Positions 3,455-63,406 of a stretch of 64,000 nt of DNA are shown piece after piece (position 1 is the first letter of the stretch; each line of letters begins with the position of its first letter). Made by a program: the position numbers and the translations under genes. This DNA is from Siphonodentalium dalli. Lineage: Eukaryota > Mollusca > Scaphopoda > Gadilida > Siphonodentaliidae. Location of the stretch: assembly GCA_032622095.1 (NCBI GenBank), contig CP136066.1, positions 103,995,319 through 104,059,318 of the forward strand, given 5' to 3'. The notes below the pieces were generated by a model that was given only the letters and a program-made list of their open reading frames with translations, was not told where the DNA came from and made no database searches.

Positions 3455-4990
3455 GTAGATAGGATAGGATAATTTTTATTTACAATATACACACATGGAA
3501 AGTACAATTACAAATAAATATTATTATTAATATACTATTCATCTATAGTGTTAGGGTGATATAGTCATGACTGACTGTCTTCCTATCACCCCTGAATGTG
3601 ATGACAGATTATATGAAGAAGATGGCCGAATTAATTAGCATGTTTTTTTGGTTACGTTCATCGTGTGCAGACTGGGTGTTTTTATATAGGCATTGTTAGG
3701 GCGATGGTACGAAAAGTTGTTCATATGTATAGGCACCTACTTGGTCGATATAATGAATGAATACTATGAATATACCTGTGTGCGTGGAACCGAGTAGGAA
3801 TAATGTGAGTGAGGTATTTTAATTAACATGTATACTTGAGTGATTTTGTTTGTTTTTTGTTTGTTTGTTTGTTTTATATTTGTTAGCTGAAAATTATGTA
3901 TCATTTATGCAATCAGTGCATATTCGGTTTTTGCATCGAACGCTTGCTGAATAGGTAGTAATAATATCCACTTTCAAACGTTTTCGGAAGACATGTCTTG
4001 ATTGCTTTGAGGTATATTTACTTTCTACGGAATTCCACATAAAGGGGAATGAATGGTATGGGAAACTTTAGAAAAAGAGAATTTGTTTTGTACTATGGGA
4101 TCAGATTGCCGTCTATTTGGTTCTGCTCTCTTGTCATACATACCAGAAAAAGACACTGGTAAGCGACCGTATTTCCAATCATGTATGCAAATGGATGCAT
4201 GTAATTTATGTAAATCATCTATTTTTTAAATGTTTTCTTGTTCGAAAAGAGGACTTTGTAATAAATATAGTTTCTTCACTGCTGGTACATGTCCCCATAT
4301 TTAGATGCCATAATCTAAGTGGCTTTGAATTTGGGCGAAGTATAATGTTTTGAGAGACTTGCTCGGGAGAAAATGTTTAACTTTATTAATGCCATAAATT
4401 GCATGTACCATTTTGAGTATGCAATGGAAATGTGTTTGTTAAAGGTCAGGTTTTCATCTAGATGGATACCTAAAAAATTGGCAGACGATTAGTTCCGCAT
4501 GTTCCCTATCCGCCGAAGTTCGGCTTCATTAAGATATATTTTAATTGTATTCCATTTTTGTCATTGTTTTGTGGATGTAAGAGCATATAATTGCTCTTGT
4601 TAGCATTGATGGCTAGTTTGTTGCAGCAACACCAGTCAGATAGATTTCTTAATTCATTATTGACATAACTTTGGATTAACGCCTCATTTGGTCCACTTGC
4701 CATAAGGGTTGTATCGTCGGTAAATGATAACAGTTCCATAATAGTTGCATTTGACATATCGTTCACGTAGAGAACAATTATGGGCCCGAGTAATGATCCT
4801 TGAGGAACACCATATAAAGTTTTAAGGGGATTTGACTTAATTCCATTGAATTATACGTATTGTCGTATCATTGAGATAGCTTCGAAACCATTTGTTTGCC
4901 ATGCCTCTAATTCCATAATGTTCCATTTTTGTAAATAAGATGTCGTGGTTTATTGTGCCAAAAGCTTATTGCATATACGCAAAATAAAGA
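3455..4990 (-). pseudogene. Degenerate non-LTR retrotransposon (LINE), reverse transcriptase remnant
   Basis: Read on the minus strand from about 4990 downward, the sequence shows the reverse-transcriptase core in order, across frameshifts and stops: [18 protein letters not shown], then [14 protein letters not shown], then GVPQGSLLGP, then VNDM and the catalytic box FTDDTTL. A thumb segment (WCCCNKLAINANKSNYMLL) follows. An 86-residue stretch (4766-4506) is still open and carries the DD box. The region down to about 3455 ends in a tail with repeated TATCC, as a LINE 3' end would. The FxDD box and the GVPQG motif fit the Jockey/CR1 type. The copy is dead, with a stop and shifts before the VPQG motif, and the endonuclease domain is not seen. 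Clade assignment is tentative. Confidence 0.8.
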
Positions 4991-7269: not shown

Positions 7270-9030
7270 GGTGATGGACACAGTCTACTCATGTTCTATA
7301 CAGTCTATTCGGGTTTTACACAGTCTACTCGGGTGCCACACTGTCTACTCGGGTTTTACACTAGTGTTCTACACAATCTACTCGGGTTATACACAGTCTA
7401 TTCGGGTTCTACACAGTCTACTCGGGTTCTACACAGTCTACTCGGGTTCTACATAGTCACTCGGGTTCTACAGTCTACTCGGGTTATACACAGTCTATTC
7501 GGGTTCTACACAGTCTACTCGGGTTATACAGTCTACTCGGGTTATACAGTCTACTCGGGTTATACAGTCTACTCGGGTTCTACAGTCTACTCGGGTTATA
7601 CAGTCTAGGTTCTACAGTCTACTCGGGTTCTACAGTCTACTCGGGTTATACAGTCTACTCGGGTTATACAGTCTACTCGAGTTACACAGTCTACTCGGGT
7701 TATACAGTCTACTCGGGTTACACAGTCTACTCGGGTTATACAGTCTACTCGGGTTATACAGTCTACTCGGGTTACACAGTCTACTCGGGTTATACAGTCT
7801 AGGTTATACAGTCTACTCGGGTTCTACAGTCTACTCGGGTTATACAGTCTACTCGGGTTCTACAGTCTACACGGGTTATACAGTCTACTCGGGTTATACA
7901 GTCTACTCGGGTTATACAGTCTACTCGGGTTATACAGTCTAGGTTATACAGTCTACTCGGGTTCTACAGTCTACTCGGGTTATACAGTCTACTCGGGTTC
8001 TACAGTCTACTCGGGTTCTACAGTCTACTCGGGTTATACAGTCTACTCGGGTTATACAGTCTACTCGGGTTACACAGTCTACTCGGGTTATACAGTCTAC
8101 TCGGGTTATACAGTCTACTCGGGTTATACAGTCTACTCGGGTTCTACAGTCTACTCGGGTTATACAGTCTACTCGGGTTATACAGTCTACTCGGGTTCTA
8201 CAGTCTACTCGGGTTATACAGTCTACTCGGGTTATACAGTCTACTCGGGTTATACAGTCTACTCGGGTTATACAGTCTACTCGGGTTCTACAGTCTACTC
8301 GGGTTATACAGTCTACTCGGGTTATACAGTCTACTCGGGTTCTACACAGTCTACTCGGGTTATACAGTCTACTCGGGTTCTACAGTCTACTCGGGTTATA
8401 TACAGTCACTCGGGTTCTACACAGTCACTCGGGTTCTATACAGTCACTCGGGCTCTACACGGTCTACGCGGGTTCTCCACAGTCTACTCGGGTTATACAG
8501 TCTACTCGAGTTATACAGTCTACTCGGGTTCTACACAGTCACTCGGGCTATACACGGTCTACGCGGGTTCTCCACAGTCTACTCGGGTTATACAGTCTAC
8601 TCGGGTTCTACACAGTCACTCGGGTTCTACACAGTCACTCGGGCTCTACACGGTCTACGCGGGTTCTCCACAGTCTACTCGGATTATACAGTCTACTCGG
8701 GTTCTACACAGTCTACACATTAATTGTAAACAGTCTACTCGGGTTATACACAGTAGTTGTAAACAGTCTACTCGGGTTCTACACGGTAGTGGTAAACAGT
8801 CTACTCGGGTTCTACACGGTAGTGGTAAACAGTCTACTCGGGTTCTACACGGTAGTGGTAAACAGTCTACTCGGGTTCTACTCTGTAGTTGTAAACAATA
8901 TATTCGGGTTCTACACAGTAGTTGTAAAAAGTCTACTCGGATTATACACAGGAGTTGTAAACAGTGTACTCGGGTTCTACACAGTAGTTGTAAATAGTCT
9001 ACTAGGGTTCTACACAGTAGTTGAAAATAT
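7270..9030. repeat. Large 18-bp minisatellite (GTCTACTCGGGTTATACA) that grades into a 33-bp period
   Basis: From about 7270 the unit is GTCTACTCGGGTTATACA (18 bp), with TTCTACA and TTACACA variants and 20-bp versions ending ACACA. At 8440-8700 a higher-order block appears three times about 95 bp apart, marked by CACGGTCTACGCGGGTTCTCC. From about 8740 the unit becomes 33 bp because GTAGTGGTAAA or GTAGTTGTAAA is inserted between copies of the core. Since 18 and 33 are multiples of three, open frames arise that read as VYSGYT and LLGFYTVVVNS repeats. I treat these as by-products of the period, not as genes. Confidence 0.95.
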
Positions 9031-17248: not shown

Positions 17249-17436
17249 ATGGGCTGCTCCCAGTCAGCAAGCGTCTTGCAAGACGTACCGTTTGTGAAGA
17301 TTGAAGTCGGGGACATGTCCAATGATGTCGAGGACCCGCGATTGCCGCTCACTAAGCGACAGAGGTTTAATATTACTAAATCATGGAAAGGTATTGTGCG
17401 GCAACTTAAATACACAGGCATCATGATGTTTCTCAG
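17249..17436 (+). CDS. Globin exon 1 (acylation motif, helices A-B)
   Basis: The start ATG lies in CACCATGGGC, a near-ideal Kozak context, and encodes MGCSQSAS. The acidic linker VEDPRLPLTKRQRF leads into helix A, then KSWKGIVRQLKYTGIMMFL. The exon ends CTCAG followed by GTAAGC, a strong donor, leaving two bases of a codon (phase 2). Joining AG to the first T of exon 2 makes Ser63 and then MFETN, which restores the usual globin helix B-C sequence. Confidence 0.92.
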
Positions 17437-20400
17437 GTAAGCATGCCGTATAACCTTATAACCATTTGATTGCTGAATGGAACATCCCTATACTCAGTTA
17501 GTTATACAAATATATTATGACATACTCCCCATTTTGGATGAATGCATGTAAATTAACCATTTCTATACTGAATGGATTTTCCCATTCAATTATAAAAGTA
17601 TATATTAGAATGGTCTATTAATCGTTCGAAGAGGTGTTCATGTAATACAAGCAGGAGAGAGACTGACAAAGATATAATACAAGAGCAGCACAATTCATTT
17701 CGCGCTCCGCGTGTATACTAATGTAGATAGTCTTGTTTCGCCTGGGCGCTGGAGGGGGGGGGGGTTATTTATAGAAAACGGAGGCCGAGTCCGTTAAAAG
17801 GTGTAGTTGGGAATTTCAATTTCGTTTATTGTCCTTTACATTATTATGTCATTAATGTTGATTTTTGGTTTGTGACAAGCTATGTCAATTACAAATAAAA
17901 GAAATGAAAAGGATAATTTGAAAGTCTTATTTTTCAACTTTTATTTTTCGTTTTGCAGCCCACCGAGTGTTGTGGTCGGAGACGACCGAGTCGGCCGCCG
18001 GTTCGTTAACTAGGTGCTGGTTGTTATTGATATTTTAACGGAATTCTGAGTTGGTCATTCGCGAAACCAATATAATTTATATTCTATGGGGGGGGGGGGG
18101 GTCGTGAGAAAATTTACACATACAGGGCCCAAAAAAAAATTACAGCCCTTTTCCTACCCACCCACCCTTTTTGTGCAAATAAATTATTTTTTTCCGCCTG
18201 ATTTTTTTGGACCCACCCCCTAAAATAAGAAAAAAATCATTTAAAATATATTCAAGACCAAATCAAACAGAATCAAAGGTAAGTTTTAAATTGGTCCGTT
18301 TCTGGTAGATTCCAAGTGTTCAAAAAATTGAAAAACTATCAACGGTTATGATGTTGTTTTCGACATTGAAAAATACATTTTGAAATAAAAAGGGTTTTAT
18401 TCTACAGTATGCACAGATATTGTGAGGTAATATTTATAGTGCCAATAAGCCAACATTGTATTTAATTTTTACATAACTAGTCCAGTTACTAATTAATGAC
18501 TTCTTCACTGTTGTTCCAAAAAAGGTGCCATCAACCATCATATCAGAACACCTTATAGCCATACCTGCAATGACAGTTATATAGTATATAATTATCACTC
18601 TTTGGAGCCAAATAAACAGGCTGGCATGTTTATTTTTTAATTTGAGGTATTTTGTTAGCCAGCACTCTGCAGCACTAGTATTATTTGGTCATTAGACATG
18701 CCAGAGTGAAAATTCCAGCACTATCAGGCACTATTCAATATTAATTTGAGGTGAAATGCAAACCAGCACTCCTATTCAGTCATCACTTTTATTTGGCACC
18801 AGAGAGTGCTTTATCTTATACCTACATATGTTCTTAAGTGTTGGTTAAGGTCATAATCTATGTTAGAACACATTTATTAGTGAAAACATCTTAAAACAAT
18901 GTCCATAATGTGGGTTGAAAAAAATTTGCACAAACAATTTTTTTCAGGCCTCTGAGATGCATCCACCACGCCCGGTATAGGAATGTTTTTGGAACATCTC
19001 CCCTGTATTACTTATATCTTGTACATACCCTGTTCCTATGTGTCTGTAAAGGCCATAACCTGCCTTAGAACACAATTATTAATGAATATATTTGAAAACA
19101 ACTTAAAACAAGGGCAAAAATGTGAATAGAAAAAATTTTGCACACACTCATTTTTTCGGGCCTCTTCGGACCCACCCACCCCGGCCCTGTATGATAAAAC
19201 TTTTGTGCGACCCCCCCCCCCGATTCTATAATTACAATCATGGGTATATAATATATGATCTTGAGCGCGTTACCATTTCTGACATTGGTTTTCTTTTAAA
19301 AGCCGATATGGAACACATTCGTTTTAAGTTAGCGATTTCACAACCAAGAAAAAAGGTGATCGAAATACGTCACTTGTACACTTATATCTTCTCAACTGTC
19401 ATATTTGTTTTGGAACTGGAATCTTGGTATTCATAGTGAGATTGCAAAATATGATACATAGCTCATTTGCTTATTTTTTTTGGTTAATACACCGGCATTG
19501 ATGAAACGTTATGGGGGACGTTTCATTTAAATTTATTGTAGGCATTTACATGATGCAATTAGTCTACTCGTGTGGTTTGAAGATGCCAAAGTGGCAACCT
19601 CTGAGTTAGGGCGGAGTCGTGGCACCAAAAATTGATAAAAAAGAAACTTGACAATAGACAATTTAACCATATATAACGTTTGGTTACGTTTTAAAGACAA
19701 ACTGTGTCTCAATTTAGTGAATCAGCACAACTTAATCAGTAAGTACTTTGGATTTATCCAATCTGGAAGAAATGTGACAATCATCTGCTATTGCCGAGAA
19801 ATCCAACCACGTCGATTGTAGAATTTACTCCCCCCCCCCCCGCCAAAAAAAAAGAGAAAGAAAACAACGTCTGATGTACGCACAGTTGGAAATATAATTT
19901 ACTTCTTCTTTAATCGCGGGATGAATTAATCGCGATAAACAAAATAATGACAATCATTCCGACAAGGTGATCCACTGCTTATAACCCATGTATGGGAATG
20001 ACGTTCCGTGATACCAGTTTGGGTATAGAGAATAACACGTTGAGAAAGAGCATCGGAGGGTTCACATCATTTTAACATGGACAATGCCGAGTCACCCTGC
20101 TAGTTCATACAGTAAAACCATAGTCAGAAATGGTATAGTCCTCAAGATCATATTATTAGGCATATACAAAATATAAAATATACTGGTTTCATGAATGCAA
20201 CACCTCAGAATATTCTGTTAAAAACAACTAGTCCTTCAAATTATTACAACAATTATCACTGAAGGTTTCTCATTCACCACACCAGTAAGCCTCTAAATGC
20301 GGACCAAAATCTACTGATCGGATTAAATACACCCCGATAGTGAGCATTCCAACTGAGACATATTTCACCAGCAATGCTAGCTATTCTATTATATTATGCA

Positions 20401-23400
20401 TTGTGTTCCCGCAATAAAATCTTCAATAGTGGTCCAGCCATTGTTGACACCTAAATACCGAAAGTAATTAATTATAACGCGGTCATAAAAGTTACATACT
20501 GCTACAATGAGACATCCGCGAAGATACGTCCGAGAATATATACATGCTGCAAAATGTCTAACCAGTACGCAATATATCGAGTACGCTATTAATCAACGTT
20601 ACCTCATAACTCCTATGACATCGCCAGATCGGCCTCGTAGTGTGCACTCTGGAGGGCGTAATAATATTTACAACCTTGTGACATTAGTGATAACTAGAGG
20701 TGTGACTGTCCCAATAGGACTAAGGATACCCACCGTGTTTTAAAAGACTAAGATGTTTCACATGTCAGTAAACATTAAGTTAAATACTGAAATAACAGAT
20801 TCCCATTGCAGGTCCACAATCCTAACCCCAAACCCTAATCCTAACCCTATTGACCGAAAAATGTAGGAATAAAAGCTCGGAAAAAGGGGATTAACTCCAC
20901 AAAAAATATTCGGACAGACGTCACAATCACAAATCCACAGGTTCCCATGGTACTACATATTTGTGCCAAGTTTCAAAAACATCGACCTAAAAATTTAGGA
21001 ATAAAAGCTCGGACAAAGTTATGCATTTTGCAAAAAAATTCCAAAGTCGAAAAAGCGGGATAACTCCACCATGAAATCGGACAGTCGTCATAATTGCAGG
21101 TGGTGGTTGATGTCTGTTTCACGGAAAATGTTTACAAAACGACTGCAAAAAACTCCGGACAACTTTGTGTCCATGGATGACGGATGGACGGACAAGCTGA
21201 TTCCATTATACCCCCAACAACTTCGTTGCATATAATAACACAAAATGTGGTATTATACAGAAGCGGGATAGTCGATAATACATATGTGTGTTAATCAATA
21301 TGCATTTGCTGTCGGTATGTCATTATTATAGTTGTGTGACAAATGTTGGGGGTATATAGCCGGGCTATTCCGATTGTTTACTGGTATGGACAATAATGGC
21401 TTCCTACAATGAAATTCTTTGAAAGATCATTGTCGCTAAAGTATATATTGTTAATGCTATCGATTAATTCACATTATCGTCAAATCGGAAGCCAGTGCTC
21501 GTTTCGTCCCGTCAAAATTGTAGGTAAACATACCAGGCTGTATAACAGTGATTTGAAGGTCAGGGGGTATTCATTTGTTTATGCCGCTTTATAATCTTTG
21601 AGAAAAGGGAGCTGTTGCATTTAACATATATTTATTTATCGAATATTGCAATGAATATTTATTTGTCAATTCTTGTTTGAACCGATTTCTAAATCTGATA
21701 TTTTTTTTATTTCTAAGCAATTAATTACATATACTTGGGAATGTGTTTGGGTAATACAGAAGTAAAAGCCGTTATCGGAGTTAATGCTTCCAAGCTGCCA
21801 GCCTGATGCCCATTGCCAGTTGTATATTCAAATGTGTTATCAAATTATTTATGCAGTACATTGCATTGGATATCTTTGTTGTTATCATTTGTATGTGATA
21901 TTTGGTTTTGAGGTACGACTTTCATCAACAATATCCGAGGAATTTCATGAATTGTTCTGGTCTAACGGTTCAAATTCGTATTAATGGCTCATTTTCAGTT
22001 TTATTTAAAAACTATTCGATACGAGGTGATTACTAGTTGGGTATATCAACGTGTACTTACTATTTGTTATATTAAAAGCCAAATTGTTTATGAACACCAA
22101 TTGTGAACTTTTTCTATTATAAATTTACTTGTTTTTCAATTTGTTGGTGGTTATTTCCAGAAATGTTGATGCTGTATCGTCTGCGAATGAAAGCAGACTC
22201 AAACACGTGCTACTGAGTATATCGTTGACGTTGAGCATTTTTTATATTTATTGTTAGATTTCAACCTAGTGCTAGGTTCAATATAACTAACTCTTGAACC
22301 ATTTCTTTGTTATGCCTCTAATATATACGTCAATATAATGGTCAAGTTTTTGGGGGAGTATGTGATGACTGATCATGTCAAATGCTTGCGAAAGGTAAAT
22401 ACATATCGCTACCAAAGAGTCTCTTGTCGTTTTGTAGTTATTCCCATAAATATGATGTTATATGTGACCCGCCATATCAAATCCAGTCGGAAGTCGGGAA
22501 TGTTTTACCCTGTGCCAATGCATTCTCTTATATATGCGAGTCGACCATAGGTCGCCTCGCATATATAAGAGAATGCATTGGCCTAACAATTTTTTACAAT
22601 TTTAATAATTTGTTCTTGTATTCTTTAACAATTTTATAATTTCACCCATACAGAGCCCCAGACAAACATGAGAAGACGACACTCTTCTATGTGCTTCTAT
22701 ATATGTGTGGGGCTCCCTGCAGGGTAATGGATGTTTTTTTATTTTATGTCCTAAAAATTGTAAGATACATTTATTTAAAAAACATGATAAAAAATTGTTA
22801 AGCCAATGAATTCTCTTATATATGCGAGGCGACCTATGGTCGACTCGCATATATAAGAGAATGCATTGGCACAGGGTAAAAAAAATCCCGACTTCCGACT
22901 GGATTTGATATGGCGGGTCATATATATGAAGTAATGGTTGGGCTGTTGAGATGAGAGTCTCTTGTCATTTTGTCGGTATTCCCAACAATATGATGTTATA
23001 GATGAAGTAATGGTTGGGTTGTTGAGAGGTTTGCTCTAATCGAAATTGTTTTTGCGAAGAATATCAAATTTGTTTAAGAAGGCCCTTTTCTGTTAAGAAA
23101 GAATTTACCCATATACCCATACACTAAAGTGAAAACAAATCATCAGAGTGTTCAACAATACTATAGGGCGTATGTAGGTGTGTTTCTATGGTTTATTTAT
23201 GCACGATTACATAAAGGGATCAAAATTTCTGGTATGTTGTGCTATTCACATACAATTTAACGCATTCACATCGCGGATTTACATCTGTTATCAGCTGTTG
23301 TCATTTTACTTCAAATACTAAAACATCCTAAAATATTGGTAATAGGTCGGAGGCGCCCGCACTGTAACTAGTCTATATATACATGTACAAAGATCTAGCG

Positions 23401-26400
23401 ATCACCACAGTACGATGACTTATACTTATTGCTGTGTGCCTCAACCCACAATCATCAGTACATGCAGAAGATAAATCATCATTGAAACATAATAAGGCTA
23501 TCTCAGTATCAGCATACCATAGCCTTGTCTTTAAAGGAGGTATAATAAAATGACATTTGACACAGTGACGTGACTAGAAGGTCTATTGAGGGTGTTCAAT
23601 TTGGAGTTCAAACTGTACCCCATAGAACCAGACCGAATTGTCCGAGTCTATAGTTTCCCATATTCTCAAATTATTGAAATGTTGGAATTATTCGGGCCAA
23701 CATAACACCCCATAATTGTTGAACATTTTCGACTGATAGCTATTCAGTCCAACAAAGTGGCCAAAAAGTAAGAAAATACTCGAATAAAATTTTTGAAAAA
23801 TCAGAATATAAGAACATTGTCGGGCTATACGTGGTCTGAAATGTCCATATAATGTTGTGTCAGGCATGCAAATTCCAACTGTTGAACTTTTTTGCAGTTG
23901 GGGTGAGACATTTACCGGTCCGCGTCACCCCCCACTGTCGATACGTCCCTGAATTATGACAGCTATATTAATGTACAAGGGTTTGGCATGTATTACACCA
24001 GGCTACTTTATGTTATATCTGAAAAATAATACTAAATGGTCTTTACGTGCGCTCGCGCAACAGTATGGCGATCAGTCAGATTCGTAGGTACGTACGTTGG
24101 TGTCACCCTACCGATTTCACTCCATGACGTCACCCTTACGCAGTACATGCCGGCGACGTTACGGGGTAGATTATAGATTTGACGCCCTTGGCACTGACTT
24201 CCGTTACTAGCTCGTTGCTATATAAACAAACCAGCGATGTGGCTTTTTTTGAAAATTGACAGTCAGTACATTCGCCCTGTATACATGTACTTTCAGAAAA
24301 TATAAAACACCACAACGTTATACCCCACCAATGTCAGTGTCTCGATATCATTTGACCAAATTTCTTGACATGAAACCGCGACAGACACGGCGTGAAATAC
24401 ATCGCATTGAGTAAACAATTTCCCATTGTTTCAATTCAACTTCAAGATCGCGGTAAAATCAAAACCGCAATTTGAAAGTGGTAAACATCTGAAAAAGACA
24501 TCAGGTGCATGCAGAAACTAATTGTTGTGCATATATATTTCTATTTGAGGTGGCAATTTTTCATGTTTATCAGTATTTTTAACGATAAGAGCGATGGTAA
24601 TTGGCGGACAATATTTTATCTAGCGCATTAAATTTAAAATAAAAAGTCGTGAATTGGCTGAGTGTTTTCTATGGCCGCACATTTCGTTGATAATTACGAG
24701 CCATTTGTTTGTCTAAATAAAATTTTTAAGTTCGAAGAGCATTAGAATGGGGATAACAGTGTGGTGTTTTGTGATTTCGGAAAGGTACATGGCGAATATA
24801 CTGTTGCAAATAACCGTTAATTGGCTCCGGCTCCGCCGTCGCCCATTAACTAAATTTGCCACAGTATATTCGCCATGTACCTTTCCGAAATCACAAATCA
24901 CCACACTGTTATCCCCTAAATAAAATTATTGAAGATTGTAATTGTCTTTTTTTGCTAACATTAAATTAAATTAAATTAAATAAATTAAGTAAAATACAGT
25001 GAAATTATTTTTTTAATTATTTTTTATTACATTTTTGCGCACGTTGGCATCTATCTGAGTGCATTCTAGTTACTGTGTTTTTCAGTCGTTATATATATTT
25101 AGGGGTCTGTTTCGGCGTTCACAGAAGCGAACATATATATTTCAACATTATAAGTCCATTTAATATCATTTTTACATAAATCGTACACGTAATCAGTTTT
25201 ACAATAAAAAAAAACAATAGAATTAAAGTGATGTGAAACACTCCGGTTGGGTGAACAAATAGAAATGGAGAATAATCTTGCTCAAAGTAGTTATTTTTAT
25301 GAATTTTAACCAAAATTTACAACACACACCGTCAGTCTTATATATTTATTAAATTCAATGAGAGTAGTACATGAGGCTCGTTACCCCCACATCTAAAAAT
25401 ATATTTTTTGGCGGGTAAAATTGTTTGTACTAAAATATTCAAAAAAAAAAGTTTTTTTTTAAACAAATCTCTAAAATTTATAACGAGTTTTCGGTCTCTT
25501 ACCCAAATATCGGCCGACTATTAAATGTCGAATGTTTTTTTTAAATATTTGCGTGTAATATCTTTTGTTATTTTTGTTCAAACAAATTTTAAATATTTTT
25601 CATGAAACTGTTAATTTTATTAATCGATGTCTAGAAATAGCTTTATACCAATTATATGTGTATGGACTGGTCCGAGTCGCTGTAATTTTGGACATTGTCA
25701 CCATCGGTATGAATGCATACATTCCAGTGTTTATCAATCAGACGCAGCCCATACTCATATAATTGTCTCCACAATACCTGAAATAATTTGACACCATTAC
25801 TCTTACATAAATAATAAAGAGCGATTATTCTTTACTTCTCTATCCCGATGAAGTTATTGAGTATATGACAGGTGTGCATTATCGCGAATTATAAATTATT
25901 GAGATGTTGTACTATTTTGAATCACGAGCGGACAATACACACGCAGTGGGTGAAAGTTAAAATGACACAGAACAATATTTAAACTTCAAATTTTAGGGCT
26001 CTTAATGTACCATTTATGTATCGTTTCTCGCTCTACAATCTCCCCTCCCCACTTATAGATATATAACGAAGACGAGAATAACATGTTGATGAAGTTTATT
26101 GGAATTTAATCATTGTCTGAATCTTCGACCGTTAGAGTTATTTCTAAGAGTTTCTTGAATTTTCTCATCGCTTCATCTGCAGCCCATTCATTATTATATC
26201 CGTGTTTGGTCAGTTTGACCATTTTCTTCATGATCATGTTATGTATGGGTGATGTTTTCAATCGATACTGGTATTCTATTAATCGTCTATAACTTTTGAG
26301 AAAGAGAGCAAACTCTGTGTCGATGGTAGCTTCTTTTCCCCACATGCTCTCATCTCCCGACATGCTCTCTTCTCCTTTCGCATCATTGGTGATGCGTTTC

Positions 26401-29400
26401 AGCATACTTTTGAATGTGTCCATCTCGTTGACACATCGCGCAACTTTCTTAAGACCGAATACCGTTCTACTACCGACGACATTATCATCTTCTGAATCTG
26501 ACGAAGCGGTTCTAGATTCAGTTGAAGATGAACGGGGAACGATATCAGATTCTAGGTCATCGGTATCTTCTCCGAAGTTTATCGCCTCTTATAAAAATCG
26601 ATTATCTGGATATTTATTAATCGAATCGTCGCTAGTCAGGTACAGATAATAATTATCCATATGACTATAGTTTCTAAAAAAAAAACAATTCAAAGAGAAT
26701 CATTATTCTTCTTCTCTTATAGTTTTATTGATATCACTGAATATATGCTTGAAGATTGACCACTGGTTCAAATTTAACGGAATACCTATAATCGTCGGAG
26801 TGTTATTCACAACTCGCCTAATGAGCAAGAAAATGAGCAAATGAGCAAAAAAATGAGCAAATGAGCAAGAAAATGAGCAATGAGCAAGAAAATGAGCAAA
26901 TGAGCAATAAAAATGAGCAAATGAGCAAAAAAATGAGCAAATGAGTAAAAAAATGAGCAAATGAGCAAGAAAATGAGCAAATGAGCAAGAAAATGAGCAA
27001 ATGAGCAATAAAAATGAGCAAATGAGCAAAAAAAATGAGCAAATGAGCAAGAAAATGAGCAAATGAGCAATAAAAATGAGCAAATGCTCATTTGCTCATT
27101 TTCTTGCTCATTTGCTCATTTTTTTACTCATTTGCTCATTTTTATTGCTCATTTGCTCATTTTCTTGCTCATTTGCTCATTTTTTTTGCTCATTTTTTTG
27201 CTCATTTGCTCATTATTTTGCTCATTTGCTCATTTTTTTGCTCATTTGCTCATTTTTTGCTCATTTGCTCATTTTCATTTGCTCATTTTCTTTTGCTCAT
27301 TTGCTCTTTTTCTCACCCTCTTTGAATATACTTTGGGTGATATTCTGTGTCATTGTTAATTGATTGGTGCATACTCAATCAAGATCTCAACGAAACGCAT
27401 TATTGACATCGATAACTATCATGGTGCATTTGGCATTCATGGCCAGACAAATTTAATTCATGGATTTTAGAGTCTGATGTCGCCAGATATCAAAATTAAT
27501 AAGAGTAAGTTGTACACGAGAACAATTACAATCATGGATAATAGAACAGGTACCTTGACGAAAACGTTTCAAACAGAACGTGGTCGTCTACATATGAATC
27601 TCCTTAAATGGATAGGAATTACTATTATGGTAATCACTGTGTCACTACCATTTATTTTAGTTCCAAAGAAGATACCGTGTGAGTCGGTTGACTATGAATT
27701 ACTTCATACTAATATGTCACACCCCAATGATTACGAACAACACCCGTGTGTTTTCGTGAAAAAGTGGACAATACGATCAAACATTACTGTTACATTATGT
27801 AATAATCAAGGACACATTTATACAGACATTAGCCGAGTTGTGAATAACACTCCGACGATTATAGGTATTCCGTTAAATTTGAACCAGTGGTCAATCTTCA
27901 AGCATATATTCAGTGATATCAATAAAACTATAAGAGAAGAAGAATAATGATTCTCTTTGAATTGGATTTTTTTTAGAAACTATAGTCATATGGATAATTA
28001 TTATCTGTACCTGACTAGCGACGATTCGATTAATAAATATCCAGATAATCGATTTTTATAAGAGGCGATAAACTTTCTAAAATAAAATGCAGAAAAAAGA
28101 GTGACTTGTACGCTACATTTGAAGAAACATGTCGATCCCGTATATTCCAGCAGATATTGAAACGTGGAGAAAACATTTCAGAGACATGCTTGATGGGAAG
28201 TTAACGCCAGATAATAAGGGTCGATACTTTATTGACAGAACTAAAAATAGTGATAGTGAAGAACACGTTCTAAAACCACATATTAACGTAGTGACGCCCA
28301 TCGCTCAAGCGATTGAAATGGCTAAGGCCGAAGTTGCAGCAAATAAGTTGACAAACACACGTAAAGCGTCCAAACAAACCAACAAGAGAGTGTTAGCTGG
28401 AGGTTTGTCTAATAATAAGAAGAAAATGAAAAGAAAAGTGTCATACGATTAGCCAAATCATGAATGAATACATAGAGTACCATACTGATAAATTGGCATT
28501 AATTGAATCACCGGCGGTCAAAGATCTATACCCTAGACCCGGGACGAACGTACTCTTAACGCGACGGTTGTATGCCACACCATATTCTCTCTTTTTATCG
28601 CTACTTATAAGAGTGATCGTTCTTCCAATAATTCGCGATAATGCACAGGTGTCATTTATGCGGAAATATTTTATCGACGAACTACAATCTACAAAGACAT
28701 AAACAGATTAAACACGGAGTTATGTCCGAGACAAAAACAGATTTCTTCGGAGAAGATACCGATGACCTAGAATCTGATATCGTTCCCCGTTCATCTTCAA
28801 CTGAATCTAGAACCGCTTCGTCAGATTCAGAAGATGATAATGTCGTCGGTAGTAGAACGGTATTCGGTCTTAAGAAAGTTGCGCGATGTGTCAACGAGAT
28901 GGACACATTCAAAAGTATGATGAAACGCATCACCAATGATGCGAAAGGAGAAGAGAGCATGTCGGGAGATGAGAGCATGTCGGGAAAAGAGGCTACCATC
29001 GACACAGAGTTTGCTCTCTTTCTCAAAAGTTATAGACGATTAATAGAATACCAGTATCGATTGAAAACATCACCCATACATAACATGATCATGAAGAAAA
29101 TGGTCAAACTGACCAAACACGGATATAATAATGAATGGGCTGCAGATGAAGCGATGAGAAAATTCAAGAAACTCTTAGAAATAACTCTAACGGTCGAAGA
29201 TTCAGACAATGATTAAATTTCAATAAACTTCATCAACATGTTATTCTCGTCTTCGTTATATATCTATAAGTGGGGAGGGGATATTGTAGAGCGAGAAACG
29301 ATACATAAATGGTACATTAAGAGCCCTAAAATTTGAAGTTTAAATATTGTTCTGTGTCATTTTAACTTTCACCCACTGCGTGTGTATTGTGTTTCTTTAA

Positions 29401-32400
29401 CATTCATTCAAAATGAGTGCTGTGTGTCCCTTTAGAGCGCATTGTGCTCCTTTAATATTCACACACCAATATTACATAACGTCCCTTACATCGTGTCACT
29501 TTAACATTCCACACCATGCGTGCATTATCCCCCTTTAATTATGTCATAGCATTGGTACATAGAAGACTGTATAACACTATGCCTATGTCTGTATATGTTG
29601 TCACATCGTGAGTGTATTGTCCACAATTTTAAGTTTTTGAAATTTTTTTAATTTTTGAAGTTTATGAAGTTTTTGAAATTTTTGAAATTTTTGATTCGGG
29701 TTGTAATTTCGCATCACCCTCTTCGTCCGCTCGTGATTCAAAATAGTACAACATCTCAATAATTTATAATTCGCGATAATGCACACCTGTCATATACTCA
29801 ATAACTTCATCGGGATAGAGAAGTAAAGAATAATCGCTCTTTATTATTTATGTAAGAGTAATGGTATCAAATTATTTCAGGTATTGTGGAGACAATTATA
29901 TGAGTATGGGCTGCATCTGATTGATAAACACTGGAATGTATGCATTCATACCGATGGTGACAATGTCCAAAATTACAGCGACTCGGACCAGTCCATACAC
30001 ATATAATTGGTATAAAGCTATTTCTAAACATCGATTAATAAAATTAACAGAGTTTCATGAAAAATATTTAAAATTTGTTTGAACAAAAATAACAAAAGAT
30101 ATTACACGCAAATATTTAAAAAAACATTCGACATTTAATAGTCGGCCGATATTTGGGTAAGAGACCGAAAGCTCGTTATAAATTTTTGAGATTTAAAAAA
30201 AAAAAATAATTAAAAATTTTTGAAAAAATGTTTGGATTTTGAATTTTAAAAAAAAAATATTTTAGTACAAACAATTTTACCTGCCAAAAAATCTATTTTT
30301 AGATGTAGGGGTAACGAGCCTCATGTACTACTAATGAGTATCGATGGCGAAATCATCTGCGTTAGTTTATCGCCGATTGTTGCGTCCCGAATCGAGATGT
30401 AAATATTTACAATTGAGCGTATCTCAGACGGTGTTTTCTATGGAGTTGTATGGTCGATTTCTTTGAGTTTTGGGCGATGTTAGTAGAATGCTACATTCTC
30501 CCAGTTAGCATAGCGCCTGATTACTAATTTATCAGTTTCAAGCAGCCGAACAAGTCCATAATATGTATTTAAGAAGAAAAATGAAAAGATATATGAAACG
30601 GACCACCTCCAAAAAATTACACCCAAACAGGGACCCACCACCCCACGTGCAAATAAAATAAATTTTCCTCCGACAATTCGGTGACCCACCCCTCGTGTTC
30701 CACGATTTTTACACTTATAGCACCTTTTTAAAATGAAATAACTCCTAACGTTTGTATGCTGACTATTGAAATAGTTAGTCTTAATGCAGATTACTGTATA
30801 CATATCTATCAGTGATGAACTAGCTTATACAGATAACGTTAACCCTGTAGCCGATATCATATTTGTCAGCGAACAATACCAAAATTTGACTTTGCTAATT
30901 TGCAACTTTTTAAAGGTCTGACTCCCTTGAGTGGTTCACCTATTGCATAAAACCCATGCCCATGCCCCCGAATGTGATTGTTCGACTAGTATATTTTTTA
31001 ATGTGTATATCTGCATGTGTTTGACCAGCGTCCCTTAATATTGTTAGCGAATCGGTCAATATTTAGATAGATAATTCTGCCATGTTCTATTCTGCTATAA
31101 AAACTTCTTGATTATACCTGGCGTTTGAACACCAGTGGCATAAGTCATCGCATACTGATCATATGTATCAATATACATCAATTAAGTCGAAAAACTGATC
31201 GCGTGTTCATTCTATAGGACATGATACAATTTTTGTTTTATATTTTATTTCTATTTTGTGATTCTAAATATTTCTCCAATTAATTATACATTATTCCATC
31301 AAAACTGATGTTATTACGTGCGCTCGCGCAACAGTATGGCGATCAGACAGATTCGTAGGTACGTTGGTGTCACCCTACTCCGTTTCACTCCATGACGTCA
31401 CCAAAAACGACGTAAAACATCGTGGCGTTCTGACATTTTTACTGTGCCGCGTTTTTGCTATGTTTATGTTATGTGTTGTTTTCGATTATTTGTTTGTCGC
31501 CGATATCGCCATTTGTCGGGATTCCCTGTTTCTATATTTAAAACTGGCATGCTCGTAGTGAGCCTCGATTTCGATGTTTTCTCCCAGGTCAAAATACGTC
31601 AGAGTTATGACAAAAATAGATCGACCTACATTTACTCCATCATAACTCTACATCAAAGAGTCTATAGACTCCTTCTGGACCTACATAGACTCCTTCATTT
31701 GGGTATTTTTACTTATAATTGGGAAGTTTTATCATTTTTGGTTCGTGCGAAGACCTCTTTTTATCATGCGGGAAAGGAGAGACATTCAAAACGCGATTTC
31801 GTAATTCGACGCAATAGGCTGAATAGCCTAACCTTCAGCCGAGTTCCGGGTCAAATACGACGAATGACTTAACACAAAACAAAACGCATTTGTTGACACA
31901 AACACCGTTTGAGGAGTTTATTATTACATAAAATGATCGTTATTGATTAATTATTGATTAATTATTGATTTTTATTGTTGCATATTGGCTGCTATCAATA
32001 TTTACACAAATGGTATTAATTATTTCTTATAATTGCTGCTTTGGTCAACTTTGACTATCGGAAAATGAAAGTCTCATCCTTTCGGCAACATGGAATTGGT
32101 TTTAATTACTTAAATGATTAATATAGTAATTTGCCTTTTATCTGTGATGAAATGAGAAATGGTAATTGTCTTTTTTTGCTAACATTAAATTAAATTAAAT
32201 AAATTAAGTAAAATACAGTGAAATTATTTTTTTAATTATTGTTTATTACATTTTTGCGCACGTTGGCATCTCTCTGAGTGCATTCTAGTTGTCCATGTTA
32301 TGGCGAACGGTCACAAATATACTGGAATAAACTTGAGGCCTTGGTTCTATCTAAGTCAAATTAAGGTCTCAGTATTGTAAAATATATGTATATATTCACC

Positions 32401-35400
32401 CTCCTACAAAAAGTGTTTTTATTTAGGCTACTGAACAATAGAAAAGTCTAATTGTTTGTAAATAATTAGGATAAAACTATCAGGACAAAATTGCAAGCGC
32501 CGGAAAATGGGGTTTTCTGGGCTCCGGATCACCCATCCCGGCCCTGTGTACGGACCCCCATTCCCCACCATAAAAACAACAAATTATTTAAAACAAAAAA
32601 GGCACACTAAAAAGAAAAAGAAAGTGATAAAATTAGAACTTTCGGGCTTATATACATGTATGTATATCAATTTCTGCTTGCAGTATGTTCGAAACAAATG
32701 CCGATGTGCTCCACCTATTCTCCAAATATATCGGCGCGGACGAAGATTTGCGACAATTACGTCAAAACGAGTCGCTCTGTGATCACGTGTCCATGGTGAT
32801 GCATACGCTAGACGAAGCGTTCACGAATTTGAACGACTTGGACTTCGTGATAAGCATGCTGAGCGAGACAGGCAAAGGTCATCACAGGATTCCAGGGTTC
32901 ACTGGTGCTGTATTCTGGGTAAGAATGAATTTACGTTTGTTATACTCTCCCCGTACCTGTATATTATGTCTTACTGTTTTGAGTAGTTCATGCAGGCGCC
33001 GTGTTTTACGAAATGGCACAGCCGATGTTGCTGAATATTTCGCAATTTTGGAAGGAAGAATAAGATAGGTCAATACATACACACAATATTCATGTGCATG
33101 CATCACACAGAAATAGAAAGAACGCCATTTGTTGTTTCATGCTGAAGAAAATACCGATTTTTCTAATTAACTTACTTTTAACAGTCTTTCCGCAGTGTAC
33201 TGGTGAGAATATTCAGACCTACACATTCACGCAGAGTTCACGAGCATGTACATGTATTTCGTTATGACATTGGAGTCAACGAAGAGAGCCACCACTCCAT
33301 GCATACGCTCCATCACAACAAACATTCAACATATCTGAGTTTGGAAAGATATATGTCTGAAGAAGTTCGACTCTTCCAAAACCCTGCATGTCAATCATTG
33401 AAACAAGCTCGGAGAGAGAGATTTATCTGAGAAAATAAAAACTGATATCATAGACTTGGGTTAAAGGGGGACTAACACTAACACACAACTTGTGTTGTAT
33501 ACTGTATTATATGTAAATATACACTGTTGCCATGCTGTTATTGTAAAGTTGTATTTAGTGTTGTTGTCTTCGGGAGAGGAGGTCCATCTAAATGGCTAGC
33601 ACTTGTCCTCCAATCCAGTCACTATACTATTTTAGTAAATGTTTACAATCCGTCTTCATACTGTTGACTGGGTGAATTCGGACACGACCTAGGGGATAAC
33701 AAAAACTAATAACATGACGTCGCTATGATGGAGTTAACATCACAAAATTAAACTTTCAGTAAACCCAATAACGAGCCTGAACACATTCCATGTATAGTGA
33801 GATAGAATATATAAGATACTTTGGTGGTCGTGCTTTAAACACATGTATTGTCACAACAGTTACAATGGATTGGGGCACAATTTATATAACTTACTAGCAG
33901 GGTTGCCCAGGTTAAAATGATATCTGCATATTGTGGATATATGGTGGGAATAGAGAATACTCTTGTTCACAGCGTTACACATATTATGATAAAGTATATA
34001 TCCAAATAACATCACAAAACATGATTCCTACACCCGGACTATAAGTAGTAGCTCACCTTATCCATATCGGAGCGATTGCCATTTTGTTTATCGCGATTAA
34101 TCCGTCTCACCAATAAAGAACTATTTATTTATTGACAACTGCGTATAATTCAGACGTTATAACATGAACATCATAAACACATTAGTTCGCAAAAATAAAA
34201 GACGACAATTGGGTTTTACATAGAGATGTATCAATCTAGTGGGTTTGACTAAGATTTTTGAGGACACCTGGTTATCATATCTCCATGAAAATACAAATGT
34301 TTCAAAGAAATGTCCAGGTGCTCCTCTGTTCATGGTGCATGCTATATACTGGCTAATTATTCTCAGTTTAAAAGAAATGTTGCAATGTTAGGCGATGAGT
34401 CTGTTCTAAAACATGAAAGATATCCTCTGTATATTGGGCAGATATAACCTTGTCAGATGTGCCACTGACTCCGTTTTCTTTTATCTCAGAAGAAATTATA
34501 TTTGACGGCACACTGTGACCACTATTGTTGAACAGGCCTTCTATACATTTCCATTTGTAACTTTTTTGTGGAAACTATATTGAATGGGGCAGACTCAATT
34601 GTGTTATACTATTAACATGAGCTATTCTAATATTTTAACATGCACCATTATCTCCCTCGTAAAAAGTTACCACTGTTAGAACGCCTTGGTGCCATCTCGA
34701 TTGTACCCCGTGAAGTTATATAATAGAACACATACAGAGATGCATTTATTTGCAAATATATCTAGGCACCAAATGCGATGTTTTTAACACGCACGATTTG
34801 ATTCCTCGTATCATTTGAGAAGAACCTGTATGAATTTGATGTTAATTGGCACTAAACATATTTCTATCAGTTTTGGTGACCCGCCCGTCCCTATTTCGGA
34901 CTCAAGCGGCGCGACATTTGACATCATTAAACCACAAACTTAGACTCATTATGGAGATGAATATATATAAAATTGTTGAAAATTGACGAGTATACAAATT
35001 CGTATCAAATTTAAGGCCCCCATTTCTCTCACCCAAACGGCAAACATTTGGCGTATTTAAACCACACGATTAGATTCATCGAATCACGGAGAAGAATATG
35101 TATCAGTCTGGTGGAAATCGGCGCTAAACATATTTTTATCAATGTTTGTGTCTCTCTCATCCTCTGTGGACCCCTGTTTCGAATGGCACCACTTTTTACA
35201 TCTTTAAACCACACAATTAAGACTCCTGATATCACGGAGATGGTTATTTATAAGTTTCGTGCTAATCGGCGACTAAACAATTTTTGTTATCAAATTTAGT
35301 GCCCATCCCACACCATCTCTCACACAAACAGCATCAACATAGCGTCTTTAAATCACATGATTTGATTCCTCGTATCATGGATAAGAATGTGTATCAATTT

Positions 35401-55350: not shown

Positions 55351-55537
55351 AGAATGTTCCTTAAATATTCCCTGACCGATTTGACACCATAAACTCACAA
55401 ATTAATAGAAAATAATTACATCGGACCAATGGGTTCATTAAAGGGCGGTTTTGGTTGCCATATATATCGACTTCCAAAACACGTTTGAACCCGCTTCGAT
55501 TTTTTGTCAGCTTAAACAAAATCCAACTATCGCCTCT

Positions 55538-55910
55538 TAAAGTGATGTGAAACAATCCGGTAGGGTGATCAAATAGAAATGGAGAATAATCGTGTTCAAA
55601 GTAGTTGTTTTACAAATATTATATGTAACCTGACAACACACACCGTCGTTCTGATATATAAATTAAATGCAGTGATTGTCGATGGCGAAATCGTTTTCGT
55701 TAGTTTATCGCCGATAGATGCGTCCAGAATCGAGAAGTAAATATTTACAACGTAGTTCGGACGATGTTTCCTATGGAGTGTTAGAGTCGACTTGCTTGAG
55801 ATTTTCGGCGATGTTAGTAGAATGCTACAATCCTCCAGTCGACATAGCCCCTGAATACTAACTTATCAGTTTCACGCACCCGAACAACTGAGTACAAAAT
55901 ATGTCTTTGT
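55538..55910 (+). repeat. Uninterrupted relative of host repeat C (empty site of the Polinton-like element)
   Basis: The sequence matches 25222-25362 and then 30333-30567 with the 4970-bp element absent. The target position is AGTGAT at 55671-55676, between ATTAAATGC and TGTCGATGG. Non-coding. Confidence 0.85.
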
Positions 55911-62856: not shown

Positions 62857-63018
62857 TTAATCATGATACAATTTAAGTTGAATGCTTTACGACACAAATT
62901 CATTTCAAACACCGACATTGTCATATAATTTAACTATCTTTGTTCCTTTATACTCTTGATTGACTTTTTTGTTTATGCTGAGGGTCCAAAAACTTTTTCG
63001 AAGAAGGACGGTGATATG

Positions 63019-63406
63019 TGACCCGCCATATCAAATCCAGGATTGTTTTACCCTGTGCCAATGCATTCTCTTATATATGCGAGTCGACCATAGGTCGCCT
63101 CGCATATATAAGAGAATGCATTGGCTATTTTTTTTAAATAAATGTTTCTTGCAATTTTTAGGACATAAAATAAAAAACATCCATTACCCTGCAGGGAGCC
63201 CCACACATATATAGAAGCATATAGAAGAATGTCGTCTGCTCATGTTTGTCTGGGGCTCTGTATGGGTGAAATTATAAAATTGTTAAAGAATACAAGAAAA
63301 AATTATTAAAATTGTAAAAAATTGTTAGGCCAATGCATTCTCTTATATATGAGAGGCGACCTATGGTCGACTCGCATATATAAGAGAATGCATTGGCACA
63401 GGGTAA
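63019..63406. mobile_element. Double-hairpin MITE, copy 2 (opposite orientation, 3' truncated)
   Basis: It opens with TGACCCGCCATATCAAATCC, lacks about 13 bp of the TIR seen at 22485, and carries 69-bp palindromes at 63057-63125 and 63329-63397. The central segment (CCCTGCAGGGAGCCCCACAC) is inverted relative to copy 1. The right end stops after CACAGGGTAA. The 63-codon and 95-codon frames over it are not genes. Confidence 0.85.

Follow-up and report, generated by a model that had tools for sequence, protein, structure and literature searches.

A palindromic Maverick-like insertion in an apparent globin intron of Siphonodentalium dalli

We analysed a window of 64,000 nucleotides from the scaphopod Siphonodentalium dalli (contig CP136066.1, positions 103,995,319 to 104,059,318; coordinates below are those of the window) and found that it holds a real palindromic, Maverick-like insertion. 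The element spans 25363-30332, 4,970 bp with exact borders, and appears to sit inside an intron of a globin gene. Its two inverted arms meet in a minisatellite that reverses its orientation, and its ends and target-site duplication (TSD) are of the Maverick/Polinton type. We consider it somewhat probable that the element is a non-autonomous inverted-duplication (snap-back) derivative of one Maverick/Polinton-type end.

Borders of the insertion and a paralogous empty site

The element begins with AGTAGTACATGAGGCTCG at 25363 and ends with CGAGCCTCATGTACTACT at 30332, the second being the reverse complement of the first. Its terminal motif is AGTAGT on the left and ACTACT on the right (AG..CT). 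Both ends are flanked directly by AATGAG, and the AG-type ends with an exact AATGAG duplication put forward in the original prediction, an earlier note made from the same DNA, are therefore borne out to the base. Among the 16 AGTAGT-ACTACT pairs that lie 0.5-30 kb apart in the window, only the element's pair is flanked by identical 6-mers.

25357..25362, + strand: first TSD copy, AATGAG (exact duplicate; empty-site comparison)
25363..30332, no strand: whole element, 4,970 bp (ends and empty-site alignment)
30333..30338, + strand: second TSD copy, AATGAG (exact duplicate; empty-site comparison)
55537..55908, + strand: paralogous copy of the host repeat with the empty site (self-comparison and junction alignment)

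The host repeat into which the element went is dispersed and about 370 bp long; the insertion splits it into 25223-25362 and 30339-30570, and an intact copy of this repeat lies at 55537-55908. In a blastn comparison of the window with itself, the intact copy matches the flanks at 82.9% identity over 25223-25361 and at 80.9% over 30335-30570. When the flanks are fused with one TSD copy, they align to it unbroken across the junction. It contains no element and has a single target, AGTGAT, where AATGAG stands in the flanks. This empty site is paralogous, not allelic. Because a repeat copy without the element carries one copy of the target, we conclude that the insertion is real and its borders exact; the comparison thereby gives both the length of the insertion and its 6-bp TSD a support that does not depend on the palindrome.

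Two unequal arms joined by an inverted minisatellite

Inverted-repeat search and alignment of the arms gave the following structure.

25363..27085, + strand: left, shortened arm; where exactly it turns within the array is uncertain (inverted-repeat search, arm alignment)
27086..30332, - strand: right, longer arm (inverted-repeat search, arm alignment)
29391..29726, no strand: 336-bp block gone from the left arm, with 2-nt microhomology at the junction (arm alignment)
28076..28747, no strand: 672-bp block gone from the left arm, with 3-nt microhomology (arm alignment)
27316..27826, no strand: block of about 511 bp gone from the left arm, with an inner border that cannot be placed exactly within the array (inverted-repeat comparison)
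26820..27086, + strand: AATGAGC minisatellite, left orientation (tandem-repeat analysis)
27085..27313, - strand: AATGAGC minisatellite, reversed orientation (tandem-repeat analysis)

Three inverted blocks, 646, 326 and 249 nt long and 99% identical, pair the arms with each other, together with terminal blocks, and the arms differ at 24 of 1,460 aligned bases (98.4% identity). These differences are distributed unevenly, with 3/73 at the very end, 9/45 in an A/T tract that also carries indels, and 12/1,342 elsewhere (99.1%). The near-palindrome of two inverted arms described earlier is thus present, but the arms are unequal, at about 1.7 kb on the left and 3.2 kb on the right, and the left lacks blocks of 336, 672 and about 511 bp.

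At the centre, minisatellite arrays with a period of about 20 flip their orientation near 27085, running in opposite directions as expected of the orientation-reversing satellite reported before. The arms join through this inverted minisatellite alone, with no unique spacer between them, and by our reading of the letters the turn takes place with an overlap of about 2 nt. The longest perfect complementary pair among the best 25 of 66 measures 67 nt (27020-27086/27129-27195), with 42 nt between its halves.

Near-palindromes are a known type of artefact, and one would arise if a read were fused with its reverse complement during assembly or library preparation. However, the palindrome ends exactly at the TSD, and the differing flanks join unbroken against the paralogous empty site. 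Moreover, the arms differ by the three missing blocks as well as by the substitutions counted above. Because of the empty site and of these deletions and substitutions, an artefact seems most unlikely.

Reading frames of the element

All frames of the element are small, in agreement with the original prediction, the longest being 191 amino acids (aa).

27534..27947, + strand: 137-aa frame (156 aa if begun at an upstream ATG), with one hydrophobic stretch near the N-terminus (open-reading-frame list)
28129..28452, + strand: 107-aa frame with a basic C-terminus and no convincing homologue (open-reading-frame list, searches)
28460..28702, + strand: 80-aa frame with no match in the family libraries, the only search made with it (open-reading-frame list, family search)
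28641..29216, + strand: 191-aa frame (164 aa if begun at the ATG at 28722), no convincing homologue (open-reading-frame list, searches)
26106..26588, - strand: left-arm copy of the 164/191-aa frame, its start deleted (arm alignment)
28628..28658, + strand: ATG-containing 31-bp motif, located where the 191-aa frame starts (repeat search)

The + strand of the right arm therefore holds frames of 191 (or 164), 156 (or 137), 107 and 80 aa, and a 105-aa frame on the opposite strand overlaps the longest of them. The 164/191-aa frame crosses the border of a missing block at 28747, and the 137-aa frame crosses another at 27826; the 672-bp block contains the 107-aa and 80-aa frames and also the beginning of the 164/191-aa frame. 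Because right-arm frames span the borders of two missing blocks, we take the left arm to be the shortened one. We set aside insertions into the right arm in place of deletions from the left, since frames cross 2 of the 3 borders in the right arm. The two clean losses of the left arm, 672 and 336 bp, stand in a ratio of exactly 2:1, which may be chance.

Using dinucleotide-preserving shuffles of 27316-30332, we found at least three frames of 100 aa in 0 of 500, compared with four in the real sequence when the overlapping frame is counted. Because no shuffle matches this number, the right-arm frames are probably genes of the parent element. Judged by eye, the product of the 137-aa frame resembles a type II membrane protein. 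The 191-aa reading begins with a C2H2-like zinc finger that scores 17.3 bits, under the Pfam cut-off of 25.2. The left copy of this longest frame differs at 3 of 469 bases, two of them changing a residue; this fits decay without selection, although three changes decide little. The 31-bp motif recurs at 29766-29796 (+), and the left arm has a 28-base match to it that runs from 25865 (-). One such repeat thus lies some 500 bp inside either end of the element, and the motif is perhaps a shared promoter and start region.

Searches of Pfam, PHROGs and NCBIfam with the main frames yielded nothing beyond matches that were implausible or below threshold, such as DUF4971 for the 156-aa frame (E 0.0012, 19 bits against a cut-off of 31.3) and, for the 107-aa frame, phrog_13587 (E 0.0034). 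Pfam matched none of the remaining eight ATG frames of at least 50 aa, and for none of the 13 such frames did it give a match to a polymerase, integrase, ATPase, protease or capsid. A large protein set yielded nothing for the 107-, 164- and 137-aa frames by a method that requires shared 5-residue words. Among solved structures, the 164- and 107-aa frames have no match and the 137-aa frame has one at E 0.55. No relative emerged from six scans of viral contigs, three protein-based and three by pattern. Three viral contigs (L001-L003) did match a motif pattern for the 107-aa frame, a degenerate guess, but we rejected them, as their translated matches are unrelated and the contigs themselves look like those of phages. 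Rfam returned nothing at gathering score in the window.

Assignment to the Maverick/Polinton type

According to passages of a survey of vertebrate Mavericks, (AGT)2//(ACT)2 is their commonest end motif, accessory regions flank the core modules, and intact copies are 12.7-24.6 kb long, with 6-bp TSDs and terminal inverted repeats (TIRs) of 46-1,447 bp (PMC8097293). Polinton TSDs are likewise given as 6 bp, and assignment to the Maverick type by ends and TSD draws on parts of PMC10045372 as well as PMC8097293. The S. dalli element has the 6-bp TSD AATGAG on both sides, with one target copy in the empty site. It has the published (AGT)2//(ACT)2 termini, a motif taken from vertebrate Mavericks, and its arms are inverted terminal copies of which the left is shortened. 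The claim of Maverick/Polinton-type ends and TSD thus agrees with the published motif and TSD length.

The small frames, which could be accessory genes, may be a further likeness to the vertebrate Mavericks. In contrast to these, the element measures 4.97 kb and is near-palindromic, its longer arm of about 3.2 kb exceeds their TIRs, and it has no PolB, integrase, ATPase, protease or capsid match. It therefore fits a Maverick best by its ends and TSD, and not by its gene content; we name it by its ends alone, as a Maverick-type non-autonomous derivative whose parent we infer. The titles and abstract openings of the Polinton/Maverick literature surveyed describe no palindromic Maverick.

A fold-back element of another superfamily (IS3EU/GingerRoot, MuDR-like, P/Galileo or Foldback) would account for some of these features. 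In its long inverted repeats, which are internally repetitive and have minisatellites on the inner side, the element resembles Foldback and Galileo (PMC3573991). In the sources consulted in part, the TSDs of IS3EU and GingerRoot are 6 bp and those of the IS256/MuDR group 4-10 bp. However, IS3EU ends are given there as TA..TA and GingerRoot ends as mostly TA..TA and occasionally TG..CA, whereas the S. dalli element ends in AG..CT. Foldback and Galileo have TSDs of 9 and 7 bp, and their ends also differ from those found here. Since the element's frames have no transposase match in Pfam either, we regard another superfamily as improbable.

Matching ends, similar arms and a TSD would also suit a member of an amplified non-autonomous family, that is, a fold-back Maverick derivative resembling a miniature inverted-repeat transposable element and moved as a palindrome by a helper integrase. 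However, a blastn search of the window's remaining 59 kb at E values up to 1e-3 detected no further copy, and this origin appears doubtful.

Origin of the palindrome

We infer a snap-back step during replication of a linear parent. Synthesis begun at one end would reach the minisatellite about 3.2 kb inward, where the strand would fold back on itself and be copied outward, so that the resulting palindrome would have identical ends. Because one end would be copied in and back out, both ends would carry the integrase site, and a helper integrase from an intact relative could recognise these two identical ends and insert the molecule into the dispersed repeat within the globin-gene intron. One arm would then lose two blocks at microhomologies of 2-3 nt and a third beside the array. 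Long palindromes commonly suffer such losses.

The structure of the element is that of a snapback molecule, namely one stretch whose end is duplicated in inverted orientation. A centre of inverted minisatellite without a spacer, with about 2 nt of overlap at the turn, is as expected of a fold-back. Adenovirus, a linear, protein-primed replicon invoked in the original prediction, may offer a parallel in inverted end duplications with symmetric ends. We set aside its mechanism as a proven model, and the passages of two adenovirus packaging reviews that we drew on do not describe inverted duplications. The closest printed precedent seen is that of adeno-associated virus (AAV), for which symmetric and asymmetric snapback genomes are documented in passages of PMC8235507. 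Like them, the element would be a defective, self-complementary subgenome from one end. The AAV genomes, however, belong to a parvovirus and were seen in virions, whereas the element is a fixed chromosomal insertion with a TSD and an unseen parent.

The main rival to a snap-back origin is core deletion, in which a whole Maverick with TIRs of about 3 kb that held accessory genes integrated and later lost its core, leaving the TIRs face to face. In its favour, both ends and the TSD are intact, and the vertebrate survey records TIRs of up to 1,447 bp, with accessory regions on either side of the core (PMC8097293, in part). However, the longer arm is more than twice the longest TIR surveyed there, the centre holds no unique core, the arrays turn within a few bases, and inverted arrays would offer no direct homology for a deletion. 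We regard core deletion as somewhat unlikely.

Several observations weigh against a snap-back derivative of a Maverick. None of the 13 ATG frames of at least 50 aa matches PolB, an integrase, an ATPase or a capsid protein; the main frames lack a convincing homologue, and the parent is unseen. The end motif was compared with that of vertebrate Mavericks. The identity of the arms drops near their ends, in the terminal 73 and the A/T-rich 45 aligned bases. Beyond the 67-nt stretch the central arrays are out of register, which tells against over-reading the centre. Finally, a single copy cannot date the formation of the palindrome to before or after integration.

The globin intron

An internal exon at 32684-32918 has good splice sites and encodes a central globin segment. 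The frame that contains it just passes the Pfam Globin threshold (22.8 bits against a cut-off of 22), and among solved structures it weakly matches neuroglobins, cytoglobins and other globins, with a best E of 0.0094. We sought the first exon by a scripted globin pattern followed by a phase-2 donor. Of three matches to this pattern, one, ending at 17436, also satisfied a glycine criterion, and its frame stays open when joined to 32684-32918. The joined peptide reaches 24.9 bits for Pfam Globin over residues 38-115. Because this match covers almost only the second exon, the upstream exon, proposed from the pattern and the open frame, is a candidate.

17437..32683, + strand: presumed first globin intron, 15.2 kb, which holds the element; upstream exon a candidate (splice sites, pattern, open frame, Pfam)

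The exon at 32684-32918 and the candidate ending at 17436 together support the location in a globin intron given in the original prediction. With this candidate, the right-arm frames of the element would lie in sense orientation relative to the globin gene.

Elsewhere in the window, a minisatellite at 7280-8708 comprises about 78 copies of the 18-bp unit ACAGTCTACTCGGGTTAT and is followed by an array of 33-bp units at 8712-9027; the long open frames in these arrays look like repeat artefacts. A reverse-transcriptase fragment lies at 4506-4850 (-) (Pfam RVT_1, 32.3 bits, above the cut-off of 29.6), and a dispersed repeat forms an inverted pair, 90.7% identical, at 22505-22925 and 63014-63406.

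Hairpin RNA and significance

If transcribed within the globin intron, the element would be expected to form a long hairpin. In a computed RNA fold, 447/451, 637/643 and 246/249 bases of the left blocks pair within their right counterparts, giving 1,330 paired bases of 1,343 in the left arm and a duplex of about 1.3 kb. As a bolder and rather unlikely extension, Mavericks in general might shed palindromic snap-back subgenomes that their integrase inserts in trans, in which case chromosomes would hold defective Maverick molecules as such, and this copy, in a transcribed intron, might yield a hairpin RNA that could serve as a source of small RNAs against the parent.

Mavericks are regarded as both transposons and virus-like, and their replication has been deduced largely from gene content. 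If the snap-back origin is true, the subgenome lodged in this chromosome would record physically that replication is linear and primed at the ends and that integration can occur in trans. Its capture would show a route by which defective Mavericks and hairpin-forming viral sequences enter host introns.

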